The notes beneath the pieces are model-generated. The model did not search any database and was not told where the DNA came from. It saw nothing but the letters and a program-made list of their open reading frames with translations. Source: Thermoproteota archaeon (GTDB lineage: Archaea; Korarchaeota; Korarchaeia; Korarchaeales; Korarchaeaceae). Taken from it: DNA of 64,000 bases. The position numbers and the translations under genes were made by a program. The stretch is from NCBI GenBank assembly GCA_027491915.1, contig JAOZGC010000001.1:62001-126000 (forward strand). Reading direction: 5' to 3'. Of the stretch, positions 26,587-53,636 are shown in pieces (position 1 is the first letter of the stretch; every line of letters starts with the position of its first letter).

Positions 26587-27321
26587 ATGCCGACCAAGAG
26601 GCTGTACTACCTAGATCAGTACATCAAGAGCTTCGAGTCCAGGGTCGAGGCCGTCTCGGAGGAGGGGGATCTTATGGGGGTCGTCCTTGAGGAGACGGCC
26701 TTCTACCCCAGGGGGGGAGGTCAGCCCTCCGACACGGGGACCCTGGCAGGGGGATCCTGGAAACTCAGAGTCGAGTCCGTGGAGGAGAGGGGGGGCGGAG
26801 AGATCGTCCATCTGGGACGGGCGGACGGCCGCCCCTCCGAGGGGGACCCGGTCCGGGGGACCCTGGATTGGGACAGGAGGTACAGGCTCATGAGGATGCA
26901 CACGGCGGCCCACATACTGATGGCCTCCGTCTCCAGGGTGTTCGGCAGGGTCGTGGACGTGGTGGGCAGCGGGCTCTCGGTGGAGAGGGGCAGGATGGAT
27001 TTCGCCGAGAGGATCAGGGCCAATCACGTGCCCGACATAGAGGCCGCGGCCAACAAGATAATCGCATCGGACGTCGAGGTCAGGGCCGCCTTCTTCCCCA
27101 GGGAGGGGGCTCGGGAGATCCTGGCCAAGTACGGGAGGAACCTGGGAGCGCCCCAGGCCGGGATGGAGACCGTCAGGATAGTGGAGATATCCGGAGTGGA
27201 CGCCGACCCCTGCGGGGGCACCCACGTCTCCAGGACCTCCGAGGTCGGGTCCCTCAGGATACTGAAGAGGGACAACAAGGGGAGGGGAGTCACGAGGCTG
27301 GTGTTCTCGGTTGAGCCCTGA
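26587..27321 (+). CDS. alaX: Alanyl-tRNA editing protein AlaX
   Basis: This 244-residue stand-alone editing factor hydrolyses Ser-tRNA(Ala) in trans. The zinc ligands are visible in MHTAAHILMA (HxxxH) and DADPCGGTHV (CxxxH). The N-terminal half (TAFYPRGGGQPSDTG) is the glycine-rich motif found in AlaX-M proteins and in the C-terminal half of AlaRS editing regions, so this is the medium-length form. The start was chosen by a TATA box 27 nt upstream; a longer frame covers the preceding gene. The smc start codon lies 11 nt inside its end, so this tRNA quality-control gene heads the SMC operon. Confidence 0.94.
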   Translation: MPTKRLYYLDQYIKSFESRVEAVSEEGDLMGVVLEETAFYPRGGGQPSDTGTLAGGSWKLRVESVEERGGGEIVHLGRADGRPSEGDPVRGTLDWDRRYRLMRMHTAAHILMASVSRVFGRVVDVVGSGLSVERGRMDFAERIRANHVPDIEAAANKIIASDVEVRAAFFPREGAREILAKYGRNLGAPQAGMETVRIVEISGVDADPCGGTHVSRTSEVGSLRILKRDNKGRGVTRLVFSVEP

Positions 27322-29674
27322 GAGGCTCCCCACCATCAGGGAGGTCAGGATAAGGAACTTCAAGTCCTTCAGATCCCTGAACCTCCCCCTCCTACCCGGG
27401 ATCACCGGCATAACCGGGCCCAACGGCAGCGGGAAGTCGAACCTGCTCGAGTCCATAGCCTTCGTCCTGGGCCACAGGGGGAGGGGCCTCAGGGCCGCCC
27501 GCCTCGGCAATCTGGTCAGCAGGGGGGCGAGACGGGCCGAGGTCACCCTGAAGATAGCGACTCGTTCCGGCGAGAGGACCGTGAGCAGGGGGATCAGGGG
27601 GTCAACCGGCTTCTACAGGATCGGGGGGAGGATCGTCCCCAGGTACAGGGCCGAGCTCCTCCTGAGGGAGCTCGGGTACAGGGCGGACTGGTACACCTAC
27701 GTGGCCCAGGGGACCGTCACCAGGCTGGTCGAGATGAGCCCCAGGGAGAGGGTCGGGATAGTGGAGGAGATAAGCGGCGTCAGGGAGTTCGAGAGGAGGA
27801 GGGCCGAGATACTGACCAGGCTCGGGGAGGTGGAGGGGAGGCTGGAGGTGATCAGGGCCAGGCTCTCTGAGAGGGAGAGGTTCCTCAGCTCCCTGGCCCG
27901 GAGGATAGAACTGATGAGGCGCAGGGAGGAGCTGGAGAGGAGGGCCCTCTCCCTGAGGAAGGCCGTCCTGCTGGAGGAGCTGAACCGCGTCAGGGGGAGG
28001 ATATCCGAGCTGCGCCTGGGATTGGAGGGTGGGGGGGAGGCGGGGGGAGATTCTAATCCCGACGTGGAAATGGAGGCCGTTGAGGCGGCCATAAGGGAGG
28101 CCGAGCGCAGGCTGAGGGAGCTGGAATCGGACGAACACATGAGGATCGCGAGGGAGGCCGAGTCCGTCAGACTGAGGATTAGGTCCAAGAGGAGAGAGCT
28201 ATCAGCCGTGGAGAGGGAGATCGAGGCGATCAGGGCCACCCTATCCTCGGTGGGGGAGCTTGGTGTTCCCAGGGAGATATCCGGGGTCGAGGGAGTGTTG
28301 GGAACCGTGTCTCAGCTGATAAAACCGCTGCCCGGTTACGAGCGAGCCTACAGGGCGGCCGCGGGTGGGAGGGCGGGGGACGTGGTGGTCGAGAGCCTGG
28401 ACCTGGCGCTGAGCCTCCGGGGGGCGCTCAGGAGGTCCGGGCGGAGGGTGAGGCTGATCCCGCTCGACGTGGTCAGGCCGGGCCGACCGCCCTCCCCGCC
28501 TGGGTACTCCCTCGGCCTCATGATAGAGCACCTATCTTACGATCCAGACCTGGACGGTGTCGCCAGGGCGGTCTTCGGGGGGACCGTGGTGGTGAGGGAC
28601 CTGAGGGACGTTTCCAGGGGGGACATAGGGAGGGCCAGGTTCGTCAGCCTGGACGGGGACCTCATGGAGAGGGACGGGAGCGTCATAGTCACCCCCGACA
28701 GGTCTGGGGTCAGGGGAAGGCTGGAGAGGCTGGACGAGTTGGAGGCCGAGAGGGAGAGGCTGCGATCGGAGTTGGCGGATCTGGAGAGGAGGGTCTCTTC
28801 CCTTCCAGACGAGTCCTCCGTCCGCAGGATGGCGGAGGAGCTGAGGGGGGTCCGATCCTCCCTGTCGAGGCTGAGGGAGCGCAAGGAGAGGATCCTCCGC
28901 CTGAGACTCGAGGAGGCCAGGAGGAGGGCCGCCGTCTCAGAAGAGCTGGGGAGGCTGGAGGCGAGGGAGGAGCAGATCCTTCGTGAGCTCGACTCCCTTG
29001 GGGACGTGGAACCGGCCGACCCCGGGTGGGGCGACCCTTCATCTGCCCTGGCGGCCGTCAGGGCCGAGCTGAGGTCGCTGCCCGCCCCCGATCCCGGGCT
29101 CGAGGAAGAGTACGGTCGGGAGCTCGAGAAGGTCAAGCTCGCGAGGGCCGAGGCGGAGGAGATAGAGAGGGAGAGAATGGAGGTGCTGGAGGCGCTCAGG
29201 AGGGCAACGGGGGAGAGGGACGGGGCTCTGGCGGACGCCGTGGGTAGGCTGGCGGAGGCCTTCTCCAAGATCTACGGGGAGGTGTCCGGCGGATCCGCCA
29301 GGATGTGGCTGAGCGGGAGCTGGCCCGACGCTGCCCTGGAGATAGAGGTGATCCCCCCAGGGAAGCCCCCGACGAGGCTCGAGTCGCTGTCCGGCGGGGA
29401 GAAATCGGTGGCCGCCCTGGCCCTCGTGGCGGCCGTGGCCGCGGTCAGGCCATCCCCCATATACCTGTTCGACGAGGCCGACGCCATGCTCGACGCGGAG
29501 AACTGCCGGAGGTTCGCCAAGATACTGCGGATCCTGGCCTACTCTGGATCCCAGGTCCTCGTGGTGTCCTTGAAGAGGGAGACCCTGTCGGAGGCCGACA
29601 GGATTCTCGGCGTGACCGACTCGGGCGGGAGATCGAGGGTGGTCGGGGTTGACCTCTCCAGGTACCCGGGATGA
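27311..29674 (+). CDS. smc: Short-armed SMC (condensin) ATPase
   Basis: This 787-residue protein has all SMC parts in order. The N-terminal ATPase half has Walker A GPNGSGKSNLLES near residue 36 and the SMC-typical WYTYVAQGTVTRLVEMSPRE region. The first coiled-coil arm is about residues 155-325, a hinge domain about 327-463, and the second arm about 463-640. The C-terminal ATPase half has signature LSGGEKSVAALAL near 693 and Walker B YLFDEADAMLD near 717. Usual SMCs have about 1150-1200 residues, so each arm is only about half normal length. The TTG start overlaps alaX. scpA and scpB follow with overlaps, making the complete condensin set. Confidence 0.94.
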   Translation: MSPERLPTIREVRIRNFKSFRSLNLPLLPGITGITGPNGSGKSNLLESIAFVLGHRGRGLRAARLGNLVSRGARRAEVTLKIATRSGERTVSRGIRGSTGFYRIGGRIVPRYRAELLLRELGYRADWYTYVAQGTVTRLVEMSPRERVGIVEEISGVREFERRRAEILTRLGEVEGRLEVIRARLSERERFLSSLARRIELMRRREELERRALSLRKAVLLEELNRVRGRISELRLGLEGGGEAGGDSNPDVEMEAVEAAIREAERRLRELESDEHMRIAREAESVRLRIRSKRRELSAVEREIEAIRATLSSVGELGVPREISGVEGVLGTVSQLIKPLPGYERAYRAAAGGRAGDVVVESLDLALSLRGALRRSGRRVRLIPLDVVRPGRPPSPPGYSLGLMIEHLSYDPDLDGVARAVFGGTVVVRDLRDVSRGDIGRARFVSLDGDLMERDGSVIVTPDRSGVRGRLERLDELEAERERLRSELADLERRVSSLPDESSVRRMAEELRGVRSSLSRLRERKERILRLRLEEARRRAAVSEELGRLEAREEQILRELDSLGDVEPADPGWGDPSSALAAVRAELRSLPAPDPGLEEEYGRELEKVKLARAEAEEIERERMEVLEALRRATGERDGALADAVGRLAEAFSKIYGEVSGGSARMWLSGSWPDAALEIEVIPPGKPPTRLESLSGGEKSVAALALVAAVAAVRPSPIYLFDEADAMLDAENCRRFAKILRILAYSGSQVLVVSLKRETLSEADRILGVTDSGGRSRVVGVDLSRYPG

Positions 29675-30251
29675 GTCGAAGTCCCGCGTCGAGGAGGCCC
29701 TCAGGGAGTTCTCCGTCAGGGGGGACCTCGAGGTCCTCGCGCTCCGCCTGCTGCTGATAAGCGAGGATCTGGCCTCCAGGGCGGCTAGGCTCCTCAGGTC
29801 GATCCTCCCTGGGGAGGGAACCAGACCCCGGGGTTCCGGGGGGAGGGCCGGCGGGACCGCCCGGAACGTGCCCCCCCTCACCCCCAGGATGGGGCGGATC
29901 GTGATGATACCCCCCTCGGCCCGGGAGTTCGAAGTCGAGAGAGATTGGGCATCCAGCCTGGTGGGCCGGGCCCGGGAGGCTGTCAGGGTCGTGGCGGCCC
30001 TGGCCGCCGATCTCCTCAGGGAGATCGAGCGGCTCAGGGAGAGGATATCGACCCTCCTCAGGGAGGGCAGGGGGACCTTCACCCTGAGGGAGCTGGCGAG
30101 GGACAGGGAGGAGGCGTCGGCCTACCTTATATCCCTCCTCCTGCTGGAGAGGGAGGGGGAGGTCCTACTCTCTCAGGACAGGATCTACGGGGACCTGGTG
30201 GTGAGGGTGAGTCCCGTTGGCGGGGGAGGTGGACGCGGCCCTCCTGGTTGA
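29649..30251 (+). CDS. scpA: Segregation and condensation protein A (kleisin)
   Basis: This 200-residue kleisin bridges the SMC heads. The N-terminal helix DLEVLALRLLLISEDLASRAARLLRS binds the SMC neck. The C-terminal winged helix TFTLRELARDREEASAYLISLLLLEREGEVLL, then QDRIYGDLVVRV, matches the ScpA end where Q...fGdI is conserved. The middle is Gly/Arg/Pro-rich and shorter than in bacteria (about 250 residues), which fits the short SMC arms. The only reasonable start is the TTG at 29649, overlapping smc by 26 nt. The tail after VRV is Gly-rich and overlaps scpB by 35 nt, and may be fortuitous read-through of the overlap. Confidence 0.85.
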   Translation: MTSPGTRDESKSRVEEALREFSVRGDLEVLALRLLLISEDLASRAARLLRSILPGEGTRPRGSGGRAGGTARNVPPLTPRMGRIVMIPPSAREFEVERDWASSLVGRAREAVRVVAALAADLLREIERLRERISTLLREGRGTFTLRELARDREEASAYLISLLLLEREGEVLLSQDRIYGDLVVRVSPVGGGGGRGPPG

Positions 30252-30705
30252 GGCGGCCCTCTTCGCGGCCGGGAGGCCCATGTCCGTCGAGGAGATATCT
30301 GAGGCGACCGGCCTGGAGGTCGAGGAGGTCGAGTCGGTCATTCCGAGGATCTCCGAGTCCCTGAAGGGGAGGCCCTACTTCCTCCAGGAGAGGCCCGACG
30401 GCCTGTTCATGACCCTGAGGCCGGAGTACAGGGAGGTGGCGGAACGCGTCTCGGCCAGGCCGGAGCTCTCCAGGGCCGAGCTCAGAACCCTCGCCGTGAT
30501 ATCGGCCCTCGGCCCGCTCAGCCTATCTAGGTTGGCCGAGCTGAGGGGTTCCTCGGCCTACGCGCACGTCAAGAAGTTGAGGAAGAAGGGGTTGATCTAC
30601 GTCAAGAGGGCCGGGCGGGGAAGGGTGGTCGGCGTCACGAGGGACTTTCGGAGGTTCTTCGAGCCCCCGGGACCCGAGCTTATTAAGGGAGCCGGGGGGG
30701 AGTGA
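30217..30705 (+). CDS. scpB: Segregation and condensation protein B
   Basis: This 162-residue protein consists of two winged-helix domains: VEAALFAAGRPMSVEEISEATGLEVEEVESVI at the N-terminus and ELRTLAVISALGPLSLSRLAELRGSSAYAHVKKLRKKGLI from about residue 90. These are the hallmark pair of ScpB, which dimerises and stabilises the SMC-ScpA ring. The TTG at 30217 lies inside scpA, so translation is coupled. The C-terminal segment TRDFRRFFEPPGPELI is typical of archaeal ScpB. It ends 3 nt before the GTG of the next, unidentified coiled-coil gene. Confidence 0.92.
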   Translation: MAGEVDAALLVEAALFAAGRPMSVEEISEATGLEVEEVESVIPRISESLKGRPYFLQERPDGLFMTLRPEYREVAERVSARPELSRAELRTLAVISALGPLSLSRLAELRGSSAYAHVKKLRKKGLIYVKRAGRGRVVGVTRDFRRFFEPPGPELIKGAGGE

Positions 30706-30708
30706 AGG

Positions 30709-32613
30709 GTGCCCCCGATGGCGGTGGGGGAGAGGGTCTCGAGGGAGCTGCGGGAGAGGGCCCTCGCCGAGGACGTCGACCAGGTCCTGAAGGCCCTAGA
30801 GAGGGAGGGGCTGCTGGACGCGTTCGAGGGCTATCTCCTGGCCCGGGACATATCCCTCTCCCTGTGCGGGGGCCTCGTGAGCATAGGGTCTCCGACCGCC
30901 AAGGAGATCAGGGCCAAGTTGGAGTCCCTGGGGGGGGAGGCGGCCTCACTCCTCTCCACCCTGGCCAGATCCAGCGGGAAGGGCGGATTCCCCTTCTCCG
31001 GCGGGATCCCGTCGGAGCTGGTCTCCGAGGCGGATCGGGCCCTTGACTCCCTGATCTCAGAGCTGGAGGGGGCGACCTACCTGCTCATCTCCGAGGCGCT
31101 CCGACTGGTGGGACCGACCAGGGAGTCGGTGCTGCGCACGGCCAGGTCACTCCTTGATTCCCTCGTGGGGGGTACCAAGCTTGGAGAACGGTGGGAGAGG
31201 ATACCCGATCTGATATCGGCTCTGGAACAGCTTTCCCCCCCCTCGGAGGGCTCGCCGCCCGGAGACGTCAGAGACTACGTCTCGCTGGTGGCAGAGGTCA
31301 AGGCCGCGGTATCGGAGGTGGAGGAGAGGCTCTCAAGATCGAAGGAGGCGACGGAGAGGCTAGGCCTCGCGCTGACCGAGCTCGAGTCTACCATAGAGGA
31401 GATCAGAAGGGAGATCTCCGCCGCCGAGGAGGAGGGGATCAGGGCCGAGTTCATGGCCGAGACGATCGAGTGGGCTCTGGTCAGGGCCAAGAGACTCAGG
31501 AGGAGGTGCCAACCCGGGGACGTGGAGTGCGCCGAGAAGGCGGCCGAGGACGCCGTCAGGCTGGGGAACAGGATAAGGGAGATGGCGGAGTCGGGGATAA
31601 GGCAGCTCAGGGAACTTACTGATCTAATGAGGGAGGTGACAGGACTCATTCCGGAGGCGGAGGCCGCGGCCGAGGCCCTGGGGAGGGAGCTCTCCTCCGA
31701 CTCGCTCAGGCTGATAGTCAGGGACGCCGCGGCCGAGCTCTCCGGATACATGGGTGGAATGGTCATTAAGGATCAGGATGAGATGGAGAACTTCCGAACC
31801 AGGCTCCTCGAGATGAGGGACGTCCTGAGATCACTGATCTCCCTAAGGAGAGCCTCGGAGGAGGCCGGCGGCCTGGAAGAGATGGCCTCCAGAATAGCAG
31901 ATGGGCTGTCCTCCTTGGCCATAATAAGGGCGGTGCTCGCCAAGTCGGAAGAAGATCCGAGCATACTGACGAGAGAAGCCCTCCCAGCACTCAAAGAATT
32001 TGGGGAGAAGATATCGGAGTATAGAGAGGCCCAGAGGGACGCTGAGAGGTTGTATCCCTACTGGAAGAGGTACCTGCTGGATCTGGCAAGGGAGCGCGGC
32101 GGGCGGGTGAGCGCGGGAGAGCTGACCAGGATCCCCCAGAGGTGGAGGCCGTGGTTCCTCAGGAGGGTGGAGGAAGAGGGTATTGCCTCGGTCTCTGAGG
32201 GTATTGTGGCCGTGACGATGCCGCAAGAGGGTCCGCCCAGAGCCAGCGTGGGGGCTGGCCCGACGTTCGAGAGGGAGGCCCCGGCCGCCGCGAAGCCCGC
32301 TGGACGGGCTCCAGAGATCATCGGATCGGCCGGGGCGGAGGCCCCTCCCCCGGAGGCCCCTCCCCCGGAGGCCCCTTCCCCCCGCACTACTTCCCTCTCC
32401 CCCTCCCCAACTCCGCCCAGGCCGAGGTCCGCCCCCGCAGGGATTCGAGGCAGGATGGGTGGTAGGGCGGGGATGAGATCGTCGATCTCACCGGCCCACG
32501 CGCTCATTCGACTGGCCCTTGAGCTGCTCTCTTCCGAGACCGGGGCCAACGTCCCGCCCGCCCAACCAGACGCGGAGGACTTGAAGCGTAGGATAGCGGC
32601 CCACCTCATCTGA
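30709..32613 (+). CDS. Coiled-coil protein with winged-helix and Pro-rich tail, downstream of scpB
   Basis: No known family was recognised in this 634-residue protein. Residues 1-470 are almost wholly helical and charged, with clear coiled-coil stretches around 185-270 (VSEVEERLSRSKEATERLGL) and 350-445. At about 450-505 a winged-helix-like module follows (YLLDLARERGGRVSAGEL, IPQRWRPWFLRRVEEEGI). A Pro/Ala-rich disordered linker with PPPEA repeats runs about 525-580. The final short domain is SPAHALIRLALELLSSETG. The GTG is 3 nt after the scpB stop (an ATG at 30718 has GGGTG upstream and is an alternative), so it belongs to the SMC-ScpAB operon. A chromosome-linked or cytoskeletal adaptor role is inferred from position only. 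Confidence 0.8.
   Translation: MPPMAVGERVSRELRERALAEDVDQVLKALEREGLLDAFEGYLLARDISLSLCGGLVSIGSPTAKEIRAKLESLGGEAASLLSTLARSSGKGGFPFSGGIPSELVSEADRALDSLISELEGATYLLISEALRLVGPTRESVLRTARSLLDSLVGGTKLGERWERIPDLISALEQLSPPSEGSPPGDVRDYVSLVAEVKAAVSEVEERLSRSKEATERLGLALTELESTIEEIRREISAAEEEGIRAEFMAETIEWALVRAKRLRRRCQPGDVECAEKAAEDAVRLGNRIREMAESGIRQLRELTDLMREVTGLIPEAEAAAEALGRELSSDSLRLIVRDAAAELSGYMGGMVIKDQDEMENFRTRLLEMRDVLRSLISLRRASEEAGGLEEMASRIADGLSSLAIIRAVLAKSEEDPSILTREALPALKEFGEKISEYREAQRDAERLYPYWKRYLLDLARERGGRVSAGELTRIPQRWRPWFLRRVEEEGIASVSEGIVAVTMPQEGPPRASVGAGPTFEREAPAAAKPAGRAPEIIGSAGAEAPPPEAPPPEAPSPRTTSLSPSPTPPRPRSAPAGIRGRMGGRAGMRSSISPAHALIRLALELLSSETGANVPPAQPDAEDLKRRIAAHLI
32341..32370 (+). repeat. 15-bp tandem repeat encoding PPPEA units
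   Basis: Two perfect copies of GCCCCTCCCCCGGAG are followed by a degenerate third. They code for part of the disordered Pro-rich linker of the coiled-coil protein, a likely spot of length variation between strains. Confidence 0.75.
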
Positions 32614-32675
32614 AATTGTCCCCCACGGCGGCGGGGAGGACCGCGACTTCAGGAATGGACAAACGGTCCATATGG

Positions 32676-32683
32676 TTTATTAA
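32676..32683 (+). promoter_or_regulatory. TATA-like box before the second coiled-coil gene
   Basis: TTTATTAA lies about 33 nt before the GTG at 32713 in a 99-nt intergenic gap. The second coiled-coil gene and the tubulin-like gene may therefore have their own promoter in addition to read-through from the SMC operon. Confidence 0.5.
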
Positions 32684-32712
32684 CCGGGCGGGGGGCGCTC
32701 TCTCGATAGGAC

Positions 32713-34107
32713 GTGATAGTGGTAAATGCCGTGCTGTCCGAGAGCGAGCTGTCCCAAGAACTCAGATATCTCCTCCTGAAGCTCAGAGAGAGACATCCCG
32801 ACTCCGTCTCCGTCTACTTCTACGACGTATCCAGCATAAAGAAAAAGAAGGAGGTGAAGAACCTCCCGGAGATCAAGATAGACGGGCTCTCGCTCTCGGG
32901 AGAGGAGGCCCTGGCAGCGGCCGAGACGCTGCTGGACCTGCTCGAGTCGGGCGTCTCCCCCACGCCTCCTCTCATACTCCGGAAGATCAGGGAGCGGAGG
33001 CTGGCAATAATAAGCGAGGCGAAGGAGGCCCTGAGGAGGCTGGAAGAGGTAACCTCCGTCATACCCCCCGAGAGGAGGACCGTGATGGAGAGGTACAGGG
33101 AGGAGCTCCAGGCCATATCCACGGGAATGTTCGGATACAGCAAGAGGTCTATAGAGAGGGCCAGAGAGGAGCTGGATCGGATAAACTACCTCATAAGGAA
33201 GCTGGCCTCGGAGGGGGTAGAGGACAGGCTATCCAGCAGGATAGCCCTGATACACAGGGGGGTGTTCGAGGCCCTGAGCGAGGCAGAGGAGATCTCCCGC
33301 CTGCTGGGCGCGGAGGTGAGGTCGGAGATCCTGGAGTCGCTGCGAGGGGCCCTGGCCGAACTCAGGGAGGGCCCGAAGAACGTGGGCGATATAGCCGAGG
33401 CCGCCCTGGGCAAGCTCGGGGAGGTGGTCGAATTGGAGCGGCGGCGGATACAGTGGCTGGAGAGGGTGCAGGGCCGACTGACGAAGGTCAGGAGCAGGGT
33501 GGGCGGTTGGTTGGCCTCGGCCAGCTCCCTGGACGCCGGGATCGGAATCAACTGGTTCACCAAGATGAGCGTCGCCGTCCTGACCAGGCTGTTCGTTAGG
33601 CTGGCCTTCCCGTCGGGAGACTGGCTAGCCTCCCTCAGGGAGATAGACGACATGATAAATCAGCTCGACCTGATCCCCCTGATCTCCGAGACCGTCGACT
33701 CCGCAGCCCAGTCCGGGATAGACGCCGGAATGAGGGCGGTGGAGACCCTCAGGCTCGCCGTCAGGAGGATGGACCCCGAGAAGGCGACCCTCGATGACAT
33801 GAATTCTATGATAGAGGAGATCAGGGCGGCCGCCGCCGGGGCCGCCGGGGGCCGCGGGGCGCCCGTCTCCCTGGAGATCAAGATCGACGAGATCTCGGAG
33901 AAGGTGTCCCGGCTGATAGACACGGCCTCCCGGCTGGTCAAACTGGGGGTCGAGGCCGACCGGGAGCTGGCGGAACTGCTCGAGGTGGAGGGCTCCCTGA
34001 AGGTCCTCAGGAGGAGGCTCTCCGCGGGGGAGGACGTGTCTGAGGAGCTGGACGAAGTGGAGCGCCGGGTGGAGTCGATAGGTCGATCCGTGAAGGCAAA
34101 GGTGTGA
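32713..34107 (+). CDS. Coiled-coil protein with possible thioredoxin-like N-terminal domain, upstream of tubulin-like gene
   Basis: This 464-residue protein belongs to no family recognised here. Residues 1-78 alternate strands and helices (MIVVNAVLSE, SVSVYFYDVS, LPEIKIDGLSLSGEEAL) in a pattern like a thioredoxin/glutaredoxin fold but without any CxxC. The rest is helical and charged, with coiled coils at about 90-165, 190-260 and 390-464. A moderately hydrophobic stretch at about 275-335 (INWFTKMSVAVLTRLFVRLAF) might lie on the membrane surface. The GTG start is 33 nt from a TATA-like box. Gene order places it between another coiled-coil gene and a CetZ-like GTPase, so it is a candidate partner or membrane adaptor of that filament. 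Confidence 0.8.
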   Translation: MIVVNAVLSESELSQELRYLLLKLRERHPDSVSVYFYDVSSIKKKKEVKNLPEIKIDGLSLSGEEALAAAETLLDLLESGVSPTPPLILRKIRERRLAIISEAKEALRRLEEVTSVIPPERRTVMERYREELQAISTGMFGYSKRSIERAREELDRINYLIRKLASEGVEDRLSSRIALIHRGVFEALSEAEEISRLLGAEVRSEILESLRGALAELREGPKNVGDIAEAALGKLGEVVELERRRIQWLERVQGRLTKVRSRVGGWLASASSLDAGIGINWFTKMSVAVLTRLFVRLAFPSGDWLASLREIDDMINQLDLIPLISETVDSAAQSGIDAGMRAVETLRLAVRRMDPEKATLDDMNSMIEEIRAAAAGAAGGRGAPVSLEIKIDEISEKVSRLIDTASRLVKLGVEADRELAELLEVEGSLKVLRRRLSAGEDVSEELDEVERRVESIGRSVKAKV

Positions 34108-34164
34108 GCCAACATTCTTAAGGGTGCGGGGGCCGGCGGCGACCGTCGACGGGGGCCTCGGGAG

Positions 34165-35358
34165 ATGAGATGGTTCGGGGTCGGTCTGGGGGGCGCGGGC
34201 GGCGCCATAATGGACGCCACATATGAAGTCTTCTCCTCGAGGTCCCCGGAGGGCCTCATAGGGGCCGTCGTCTTCAACACGGCCGAGTCGGACAGGGCCA
34301 AGCTCAGGCACCTCAAGGAGTCCTTCTACCTGTTCGGAGAGTTCGGGGGGGCCGGAGTCGGCGCCCGGTGGAAGGACTCCATGAGGGCCATGGGATCCCC
34401 GGAAGCCAAAGAGATGGTCAGGTCGGTGCTCGAGCGGAGGGGGATCTCAGGGGCCACGGGGGTGCTCCTGTCGACCGCCCTCGGGGGAGGGACGGGAAGC
34501 GGATCGACCCCCCTGGTGGCCAGGTACGTCAGGGAGATCCTGGGCGGAGAATCCTCCGTCCAGCCTATAGTCTCGGTGGGGGTCCTCCCCTTCAGGTACC
34601 CCCGGGAGTCCATGAGGTTCGCCTACAACAGCGCCGTGTCTCTCTCCAACCTCCTCTCCCCGACCGACTCGGTCTTCCTGTTGGACAACGACGTGGTCTG
34701 GAATAGGGTGGTTTCAGATGAACCGAACCTCAGCGACGAGGAGGCGCTTCAGAGGATAAACAGGCTGGCCGGACTGTTCCTGAGGGCCATATCCGTCGCC
34801 TCCTCCAACCCAATGATGGGCGGCTTCAAGACCACCCTCGACTCCCAGGACCTCAGGTCGATGGTGAGGTTCTTCGAGGCCTCCATATGCGTCCCGTGCT
34901 ACGCCTCCGTCAGGGTGGAGGCGGTTGAGGGGTCCCTGGAGTTCCTGATGGAGCTGGCCCTGGGGGAGGGCTGCTTCGCCGAGGTGGAGCCCAAGACCGC
35001 CCTGAAGGCGGCCTTCGTCATAAGGGGGCCGGAGAGGTACCTGAACGTCAACTCCCTCTTCGAGGCCAAGAGGGTCCTGGCCGAGAGGATAGCGGGCATA
35101 GACGTCAGGGAGGGGCTGGCCGCGGCGCCGGAGGATGAGAAGAGATTCGAGATCTCCGTGCTGCTCGTGGAGCCCAGGGTCCCGAGGATAGATGAGATAC
35201 TCGAGCAGGCGGAGCTCTACTACAACGTCCACGAGGACGAGTTGACCAAGATGGAGGACACCCCAAGGGACGAGTTCGAGGGATACCTGGAGAGGCTGAG
35301 GTCCCACCTGGAGAAGGCCGAGGAGTCCAGGAGGGGATTGGAGGCTGGGTCGGGCTGA
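34165..35358 (+). CDS. Divergent tubulin/FtsZ-superfamily GTPase, CetZ-like
   Basis: This 397-residue protein has the whole GTP-binding core of tubulin/FtsZ: T1 VGLGGAGGAI near residue 6, T2 VFNTAESD near 38, T3 FGGAGVGARWKDSM, the tubulin signature LGGGTGSGST near 110, T5/T6 GVLPFRYPRESMRFAYNSA and LLDNDV, and a T7 candidate TLDSQDL near 226 retaining the two acidic residues used for GTP hydrolysis. NTA in T2, GVLP and DND resemble CetZ more than cell-division FtsZ. There is no canonical FtsZ C-terminal peptide; the end is a charged helix. It should polymerise in a GTP-dependent way. It lies 57 nt behind a coiled-coil gene and close to smc-scpAB. Confidence 0.9.
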   Translation: MRWFGVGLGGAGGAIMDATYEVFSSRSPEGLIGAVVFNTAESDRAKLRHLKESFYLFGEFGGAGVGARWKDSMRAMGSPEAKEMVRSVLERRGISGATGVLLSTALGGGTGSGSTPLVARYVREILGGESSVQPIVSVGVLPFRYPRESMRFAYNSAVSLSNLLSPTDSVFLLDNDVVWNRVVSDEPNLSDEEALQRINRLAGLFLRAISVASSNPMMGGFKTTLDSQDLRSMVRFFEASICVPCYASVRVEAVEGSLEFLMELALGEGCFAEVEPKTALKAAFVIRGPERYLNVNSLFEAKRVLAERIAGIDVREGLAAAPEDEKRFEISVLLVEPRVPRIDEILEQAELYYNVHEDELTKMEDTPRDEFEGYLERLRSHLEKAEESRRGLEAGSG

Positions 35359-35417: not shown

Positions 35418-36884
35418 GTGTCCGACCTGGAGAGGTTCTTCTCCCCGAGATCGATAGCCGTGATAGGGGCTTCCAGGGATCCCGGGTCGGTTGGTCACGA
35501 GCTCCTGAGGATACTGGCGGAGAACAGGCTGAGGGGGGGATTTGATTGGAGGCTCTACGCAGTGAACCCCAGGGCCGACTCCGACATACTGGGGGTGCCC
35601 ACCTACAGATCCGTCAACGAAGTCCCCGGGGACGTCGACCTTGGCGTGATAGTGACCCCGGCCAGGTACGTGCCGTCTATAGTTGAAGAGTGCGGGCTCA
35701 GGGGAATAAAGAACCTCATAGTGATAAGCGGGGGCTTCGCCGAGGTGGGAGAGGAGGGTAAGAGGCTTCAGGACGCCCTGATCCGGGCGGCCAGGCGGAG
35801 GGGAATGAGGATCCTAGGTCCGAACTGCGTCGGGGTGGTGGTCCCCAGGACCGGGGTGGACACGGCCTTCCTCCCGGTCGAGAAGCCCTTCGGAGACGGG
35901 AGCCTGGAATCCCTCCCCCGACCGCCCCCCGGGAACATATCCCTCATATCCCAGTCGGGCGCCTTCGGCGTGGCATGCCTGGACTACATGGCGGGTGAGG
36001 GTCTGGGGCTGGCCAAGTTCGTCAGCTACGGAAACAAGGCGGACGTGGACGAGGTGGACCTGATAGGGTACCTGGCCGACGATCCCGAGACCCGGGTGAT
36101 AATAGTCTACGCCGAATCCATAGAGAGGGGGAGGGAGTTCTTGGAGGCCGTCCGGAGGGCGGTGGCCAAGAAACCGGTGGTCGTGCTCAAGGCGGGGAGG
36201 ACGTCGGCCGGGGCGAGGGCCGCAAGCTCCCACACGGCCGCCCTCGCCGGATCCGACGAGGTGTACGAGGCGGCCCTGAGGCAGGCCGGCGCCATCAGGG
36301 TATACGAGGTCGAGGAACTGTTCGACGCGACCAAGGCCCTCTCCATGCAGCCGCCGGCCCGGGGGAGGAGGGTGGCAGTCCTCACAGACGGCGGGGGGGC
36401 CGGCGTGATGGCCACGGACGAGTTGGAGTCCAGAGGGGCATCCGTTCCGAGACTATCCGGGCGGACCCTGGCCGAGCTCGAGAGGATGAGGGAGGAGGGG
36501 GAGATCCCGCCCATATCCGGCATATCCAACCCGGTCGACCTGACCGGCAGCGCCACGGACGAGCACTTCGTCAGATCACTCGAGGTCCTACTGGGGGATC
36601 CCGGGATAGACGGCGTGGTGGTGCTCGCCCTCCACCACGTCCCTGGGGTCACGGACGAACTTCCCTCCAAGCTCGCCCGGGTCGCGGCCGACGGGGGGAA
36701 GCCCGTGGTCGCCTGCGACATAGGACAGGGGAGTTATTCGGTCGCCTTCAGGGACCTGTTCGACCGCGCCGGGATACCCGCCTACCCGACCCCTGAGAGG
36801 GCCGCCAGGGCCATGGTGCACCTGATACGCTACGGGGAGGCCCTGGCCAGGGTCTCCCCCCTCAGGTCCTCACCGACGCCCTAG
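35418..36884 (+). CDS. ADP-forming acyl-CoA synthetase, alpha subunit
   Basis: This 488-residue protein resembles the alpha subunit of ADP-forming acetyl/acyl-CoA synthetases, which make ATP from acyl-CoA in the archaeal cytoplasm. The CoA-binding Rossmann domain opens with FFSPRSIAVIGASRDPGSVG. FGPNCVG-type and LISQSGAFGVACLDYMA motifs follow. ASSHTAALAGSDEVYEAALRQAG contains the His that carries the phosphate. LTDGGGAGVMATDEL begins the third domain. No ATP-grasp beta subunit is encoded nearby, so it must pair with a partner elsewhere. It starts with a GTG about 30 nt after a TATA-like T-rich stretch and overlaps the convergent RidA gene by 23 nt. Confidence 0.9.
   Translation: MSDLERFFSPRSIAVIGASRDPGSVGHELLRILAENRLRGGFDWRLYAVNPRADSDILGVPTYRSVNEVPGDVDLGVIVTPARYVPSIVEECGLRGIKNLIVISGGFAEVGEEGKRLQDALIRAARRRGMRILGPNCVGVVVPRTGVDTAFLPVEKPFGDGSLESLPRPPPGNISLISQSGAFGVACLDYMAGEGLGLAKFVSYGNKADVDEVDLIGYLADDPETRVIIVYAESIERGREFLEAVRRAVAKKPVVVLKAGRTSAGARAASSHTAALAGSDEVYEAALRQAGAIRVYEVEELFDATKALSMQPPARGRRVAVLTDGGGAGVMATDELESRGASVPRLSGRTLAELERMREEGEIPPISGISNPVDLTGSATDEHFVRSLEVLLGDPGIDGVVVLALHHVPGVTDELPSKLARVAADGGKPVVACDIGQGSYSVAFRDLFDRAGIPAYPTPERAARAMVHLIRYGEALARVSPLRSSPTP

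Positions 36885-53537: not shown

Positions 53538-53636
<99 letters not shown>

Follow-up and report, generated by a model that had tools for sequence, protein, structure and literature searches.

Introduction

The closest described counterparts of the tubulin-like protein analysed here, which we call KTUB, are the CetZ proteins (PDB 3zid, 4b45 and 4b46). These are the best solved-structure matches of KTUB by both sequence and fold (Foldseek), and CetZ and KTUB alike occur as an extra paralogue beside canonical FtsZ. KTUB also retains the GGGTGSG T4 loop, the T6 DN and the T7 D-x-x-D/E motif. It differs from CetZ in that the CetZ_C domain is essentially unrecognised, the T5 region carries a two-residue insertion, the protein belongs to a separate long-branched clade, and its C-terminal helical tail, with invariant YY...E...T residues, is absent from CetZ. 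The available sections of a CetZ survey describe type IV pili, F420 and sugar-epimerase genes as CetZ neighbours and make no mention of Korarchaeota (PMC9856176). A second comparison is with FtsZl1 of the Tubulin_2 family, which is likewise a divergent tubulin-superfamily protein beside canonical FtsZ. FtsZl1 has its own coiled coil and vWA gene neighbours, and no T6-H7 region could be recognised in it (PMC2875224). KTUB gives a weak Tubulin_2 match (5.6e-5, below the cut-off), but its T6 and T7 are intact and its putative coiled-coil partner is encoded separately.

Two further systems bear on the locus, which was compared across the family Korarchaeaceae (f1 in our comparison set, with genera labelled g1 to g5). 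The first is the SMC-ScpAB condensin. Adjacency of smc and scpA in Korarchaeota was reported earlier (PMC7055376), and smc, scpA and scpB lie in this order in the DNA studied here. The differences are that the SMC has only 787 aa, with short arms, and that an extra gene, CC1, abuts scpB in g1 and g2 only. The second comprises Arf/Ras-like GTPase and Roadblock genes: CC1-family genes of g4 overlap a small GTPase gene, and an Arf-like GTPase and Roadblock lie nearby. However, the predicted rod and winged helix set CC1 apart from Roadblock proteins, and the neighbour of CC1 in g1, g2, g3 and g5 is a tubulin homologue.

In a limited search of the open-access literature, no paper was found that describes a tubulin clade specific to Korarchaeia together with a coiled-coil/winged-helix partner, and neither the KTUB clade nor the CC1-KTUB pair is described in the available parts of PMC9856176, PMC9871819, PMC2875224, PMC8178401 and PMC7055376. 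Because the pair was seen only in korarchaeal archaea, it is probably an undescribed cytoskeletal unit. On balance, and judging from sequences and predicted structures, we lean towards the view that CC1 and KTUB together make up a cytoskeletal unit of two genes in Korarchaeaceae, in which KTUB would make filaments, CC1 would be a dedicated adaptor or regulator, and condensin would be a bystander.

The locus and its neighbours

The window, i.e. the whole 64,000-nt stretch of DNA that was analysed (G000:C2:62001-126000), comes from a genome of Korarchaeia (Archaea) of 1.12 Mb in four contigs that is 91% complete. A sequence-only reading had proposed a condensin-cytoskeleton module of seven genes, from alaX to KTUB, and all seven were confirmed in coordinates, order and + strand orientation (Table 1). 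The intergenic distances from alaX to KTUB are -11, -26, -35, +3, +99 and +57 nt. The end point that the reading had set at KTUB is arbitrary, because acsA follows 59 nt downstream and also adjoins KTUB in three genera (g1, g2 and g3). This gene is a metabolic neighbour of KTUB, and alaX is probably a neighbour rather than part of the unit. Third-codon-position GC is 0.80-0.90 in all seven genes from alaX to KTUB, and since CC1 and CC2 share this value with their neighbours, both look like genuine coding sequences.

AT-rich 8-mers were present upstream of alaX, CC1, CC2, KTUB and acsA, and none was present upstream of smc, scpA or scpB; by comparison, 8.4% of 60-nt stretches drawn at random from the GC-rich window contain one. 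The pattern suggests that the cluster is made up of several transcription units, motif matches not being proof of promoters. In the g2 genomes, an extra 283-aa gene lies between alaX and smc (L034:11474-12325 and L035:7805-8656), the product of which has a hydrophobic segment at its N-terminus and a region resembling a winged helix at its C-terminus. The window contains a single tRNA gene (53539-53636, - strand), which is 98 bases long, was given no anticodon assignment and possibly contains an intron.

Table 1. Genes of the cluster, with window coordinates and the evidence for each assignment
Gene	Coordinates	Strand	Product and evidence
alaX	26587..27321	+	Alanyl-tRNA editing protein, AlaXM-like; NF040865 9.7e-67; TATA-like AT-rich box at about -31
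smc	27311..29674	+	787 aa, short-armed condensin ATPase; SMC_N 3.3e-44; SMC_hinge 1.8e-19, residues 327-432
scpA (kleisin)	29649..30251	+	200 aa; weak Rad21_Rec8 C-terminal match 1.3e-3; position; g2 orthologues at 33%
scpB (KITE)	30217..30705	+	162 aa; ScpB PF04079 2e-26
CC1	30709..32613	+	634 aa; Korarchaeaceae-specific family; own profile, domain alignment, structure model
CC2	32713..34107	+	Presumably helical, 464 aa, rich in Leu, Glu and Arg; TATA-like box GTTTATTAAC at about -38
KTUB (tubulin-like)	34165..35358	+	397 aa, tubulin-superfamily GTPase; PF00091 1.3e-16
acsA	35418..36884	+	ADP-forming acyl-CoA synthetase alpha subunit; TIGR02717 1.1e-140; TATA-like box at about -38

CC1 belongs to a Korarchaeaceae-specific family and neighbours KTUB

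Searches of Pfam, NCBIfam and PADLOC gave nothing above noise for CC1 or CC2, which bears out the earlier statement that the two coiled-coil proteins match no recognised family. The idea that they are duplicates of each other was rejected, as they show no similarity. In an AlphaFold2 model (pLDDT 73.8, built from five sequences), CC1 consists of a helical rod (~8-462), a winged helix (~417-502), a low-confidence linker (505-596) and C-terminal helices. Region ~417-502 is modelled in a helix-strand-helix-strand-strand arrangement and is read as a winged helix on that basis. In a fold search against the PDB, the best E for CC1 was 0.097, a result to be expected from a long helical model. The winged-helix profile reached a best, chance-like E of about 0.1 in the PDB, and its weak matches, which include Z-DNA-binding and HTH proteins, are consistent with a winged helix, not proof of one.

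A family profile detected CC1 relatives across Korarchaeaceae. The family is real: when the g5 and g3 proteins were kept out of the training set, profiles built from g1 and g2 picked them up at 8e-21 to 9e-29 and matched nothing else among the test ORFs. From the other side, a profile of g4 members recovered the CC1 proteins encoded beside KTUB at 5e-10 to 8e-18. The winged-helix profile was strong in 20 of the 24 family genomes, and a 297-genome archaeal sample contained nothing strong outside the family (best 2.8e-7). Two CC1-like BLAST matches (L112:8666-10348 and L116:8359-10080) were dropped, being unaligned in the domain and without profile support. The CC1 proteins encoded beside KTUB formed no single well-supported clade in the tree (84/82, with long branches).

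CC2 is a different case. No homologue was found in 29 relatives, the 297-genome sample or the PDB, and one weak match (8.8e-4), to a stretch with an in-frame stop, was judged to be chance. Because only 59-60 nt separate CC1 and KTUB in g2, CC2 is absent there. It is either lineage-specific or diverged beyond recognition.

CC1 and KTUB are adjacent in g1, g2, g3 and, among the g5 genomes, G004. This could be a matter of chance neighbours, with CC1 acting together with condensin or with nothing, KTUB working by itself as a shape or surface protein similar to CetZ, and the adjacency being inherited order. We regard this as possible but rather doubtful. It would fit the long collinear blocks of g1 and g2, the presence of a metabolic gene (acsA) after KTUB in three genera, and the arrangement in G008 and G010, where CC1 and KTUB are on different contigs and the linkage is thus not obligatory. 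Furthermore, since KTUB comes with an AT-rich promoter-like box of its own in most genera, it may not be transcribed together with CC1. However, G004 has kept CC1 beside KTUB with no other window gene next to them, the surrounding order having been lost, and in g3 the two genes overlap by 4 nt. Strong CC1 matches (>160 bits) were also found in seven of the eight KTUB genomes, the eighth (G006) having a contig break inside KTUB, whereas g4 genomes carry distant CC1 relatives only. These observations argue for CC1 and KTUB as a pair.

CC1 relatives in genus g4 are coupled to small GTPases

Most CC1-like genes of g4 overlap a small-GTPase gene, and the example scanned matches Arf (4e-9) and Ras. 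At L098:5176-7397 and similar g4 loci, the overlap between the CC1-like gene and the Ras/Arf-like GTPase gene is 4 nt. Nearby, within a few kb of the CC1-like gene, lie a Roadblock gene (1.1e-6) and a second GTPase with a stronger match to Arf (1.5e-49). Since the g4 relatives are coupled to an Arf/Ras-like small GTPase instead of a tubulin homologue, the CC1 family looks like a general GTPase adaptor. In three g4 genomes (L098:10572-16201, L099 and L100), five divergent FtsZ paralogues are clustered a few kb from the CC1-like gene; each cluster has a small gene (FRRKKEEE), and that of L099 contains a PRC-barrel gene.

KTUB forms a separate clade of the tubulin superfamily

KTUB orthologues (35-62% identity) were found in 8 of the 24 Korarchaeaceae genomes (G000, G001, G002, G004, G005, G006, G008 and G010). 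The protein was absent from all 16 g4 genomes, in which the matches were weak and to other superfamily members. A scan of genome contigs with a single KTUB protein as query returned no match; with the KTUB alignment as query, matches were returned only in Methanodesulfokora and other Thermoproteota MAG records, the named carriers including Candidatus Methanodesulfokora washburnensis. A mobile or viral origin was rejected, as searches turned up neither a plasmid match to CC1 nor a viral relative of KTUB.

The tubulin GTPase domain (PF00091) scored 61.8 bits in KTUB against a cut-off of 33, and the Pfam scan gave no match to FtsZ_C. When placed in a tree alongside FtsZ, CetZ and further archaeal paralogues, the KTUB proteins formed a monophyletic clade (100/100) made up of Korarchaeaceae only. 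The clade joined the CetZ-side group, which was split from FtsZ at 100/100, and was placed outside the CetZ group, its exact position having support of 83/76 with a small CetZ sample. Because two canonical FtsZ genes are encoded elsewhere in the window's genome, KTUB is an extra paralogue.

Its best structural and solved-sequence matches, together with its place on the CetZ side, could mean that KTUB is simply a divergent CetZ with the customary CetZ function in cell shape and motility, CC1 then being an unrelated archaeal regulator. We consider this unlikely. CetZ_C scored 18.7 bits against a cut-off of 21.6 in the window KTUB and passed that cut-off only narrowly in one orthologue; in clear archaeal CetZ proteins the score was 183-227 bits. 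In addition, the branch leading to KTUB is long (1.38) and KTUB is not nested inside CetZ. As the CetZ_C test failed, we class KTUB as a new variant in the tubulin superfamily rather than as a CetZ.

The aligned T1, T4 (GGGTGSG), T6 (DN) and T7 (DSQD) motifs are intact in the KTUB proteins of g1, g2 and g5, and the window protein has kept the T7 acidic residues (LDSQD). Both of these residues were lost (DSQD to SAQS) in two g3 KTUBs (L038:4393-5580 and L039:3664-4554), so a hydrolysis cycle is not universal in KTUB. The C-terminal helical tail (about 341-384) is invariant at 10 of 44 positions and had no counterpart in the CetZ or FtsZ proteins compared; the structure model is weak at 238-337. 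From these sequence features, KTUB would form filaments in a GTP-dependent manner and carry a docking tail peculiar to its lineage.

Condensin genes are neighbours of CC1 and KTUB in two genera

Walker A, LSGGE and Walker B motifs were found in the SMC protein, and profiles recognised SMC_N, SMC_hinge and ScpB clearly and ScpA weakly. At 787 aa this SMC is short, as are its full-length relatives in Korarchaeaceae, whose open frames span about 758-802 aa; the 1165-position archaeal SMC model implies coiled-coil arms about twice as long. Wadjet or another SMC-like defence system was rejected as an identity for the cluster: PADLOC gave only ATPase-type matches for SMC, weak wHTH matches for ScpB, a single weak LmuB match for CC1 (2.1e-4) and none for ScpA, CC2 or KTUB. 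One genome that is 99% complete, G003, is without scpA and scpB and has a 185-aa, internally deleted smc remnant with a degraded Walker A (L183:3475-4032, C2), located between flanks that are 85-96% identical to G007. This is apparently a natural loss of condensin.

In a condensin-cytoskeleton module of the kind proposed in the sequence-only reading, CC1 (and CC2) would join SMC-ScpAB to KTUB filaments and thereby couple chromosome organisation or segregation to the filament. The tight packing that prompts this reading is there: in g1, alaX and the genes up to CC1 overlap or lie almost end to end, and smc, scpA, scpB and CC1 overlap or abut likewise in g2, though CC1 is only about 33% identical. 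The expected conservation across genera was seen for g1 and g2 only, with smc-scpA-scpB-CC1-KTUB-acsA together in g1 and both g2 genomes (two genera, three genomes). Window positions ~9-63 kb are collinear with ~85-25 kb of contig 11 in G005, i.e. over about 50 kb, and because nearly the whole window is collinear, the order shared by g1 and g2 is background, not signal. We found no retention of smc-scpAB with CC1-KTUB beyond this general collinearity.

Elsewhere in the family, the downstream genes are in other places or missing while the condensin genes remain, which is the pattern that the sequence-only reading had itself named as a refutation. The three g5 genomes (G004, G008 and G010) have an intact smc-scpA-scpB on a contig other than that of KTUB, 14 of the 16 g4 genomes have kept smc and none has KTUB, and CC2 is in no relative. 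TATA-like boxes also separate CC2 and KTUB from the smc unit. One observation leans weakly the other way, as g3 is the sole KTUB genus with no detectable smc or scpB and is also the one without the KTUB T7 acidic residues, but the g3 genomes are 78% and 71% complete and the absence is uncertain. A module that includes condensin is thus decidedly improbable. What stands of the claim is a unit of a coiled-coil protein (CC1) and a tubulin homologue, neighbours in four genera; condensin membership falls away, with smc-scpAB lying next to the pair on the chromosome in two genera without being a conserved part of the unit. We give still less credence to the more specific idea that CC1 physically bridges SMC-ScpAB to KTUB filaments in two genera and that loss of SMC-ScpAB in g3 accompanied loss of KTUB catalysis, which, if true, would be a simple prokaryotic counterpart of spindle-chromosome coupling.

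A proposed CC1-KTUB cytoskeletal unit

Our preferred reading, the two-gene unit of CC1 and KTUB, starts from computed gene content, family relationships, adjacency, intact catalytic motifs and collinearity; we infer that KTUB polymerises, that CC1 binds it, which surface serves for docking and what the unit does in the cell. By analogy with other tubulin-superfamily proteins, KTUB would bind GTP and probably polymerise head to tail. Each subunit would supply T7 acidic residues to complete the following subunit's active site, and hydrolysis would then drive turnover. CC1, as a predicted helical rod with a winged helix, is most likely the dedicated adaptor or regulator of KTUB. It perhaps docks on the conserved C-terminal helical tail, and its winged helix may connect the KTUB filament to another target. 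The cellular role of such a unit may be in shape, positioning or division, alongside the two canonical FtsZ proteins.

For the reading of similar loci, the lesson is that, before claiming a link between chromosome and cytoskeleton, one should compare operon-like neighbours with the background collinearity. For Korarchaeaceae, if CC1 is an adaptor for both a filament GTPase and a small GTPase, the family would provide a route to how cytoskeletal and switch GTPases acquire shared partners, a question that would here be set in an early-branching archaeal group.
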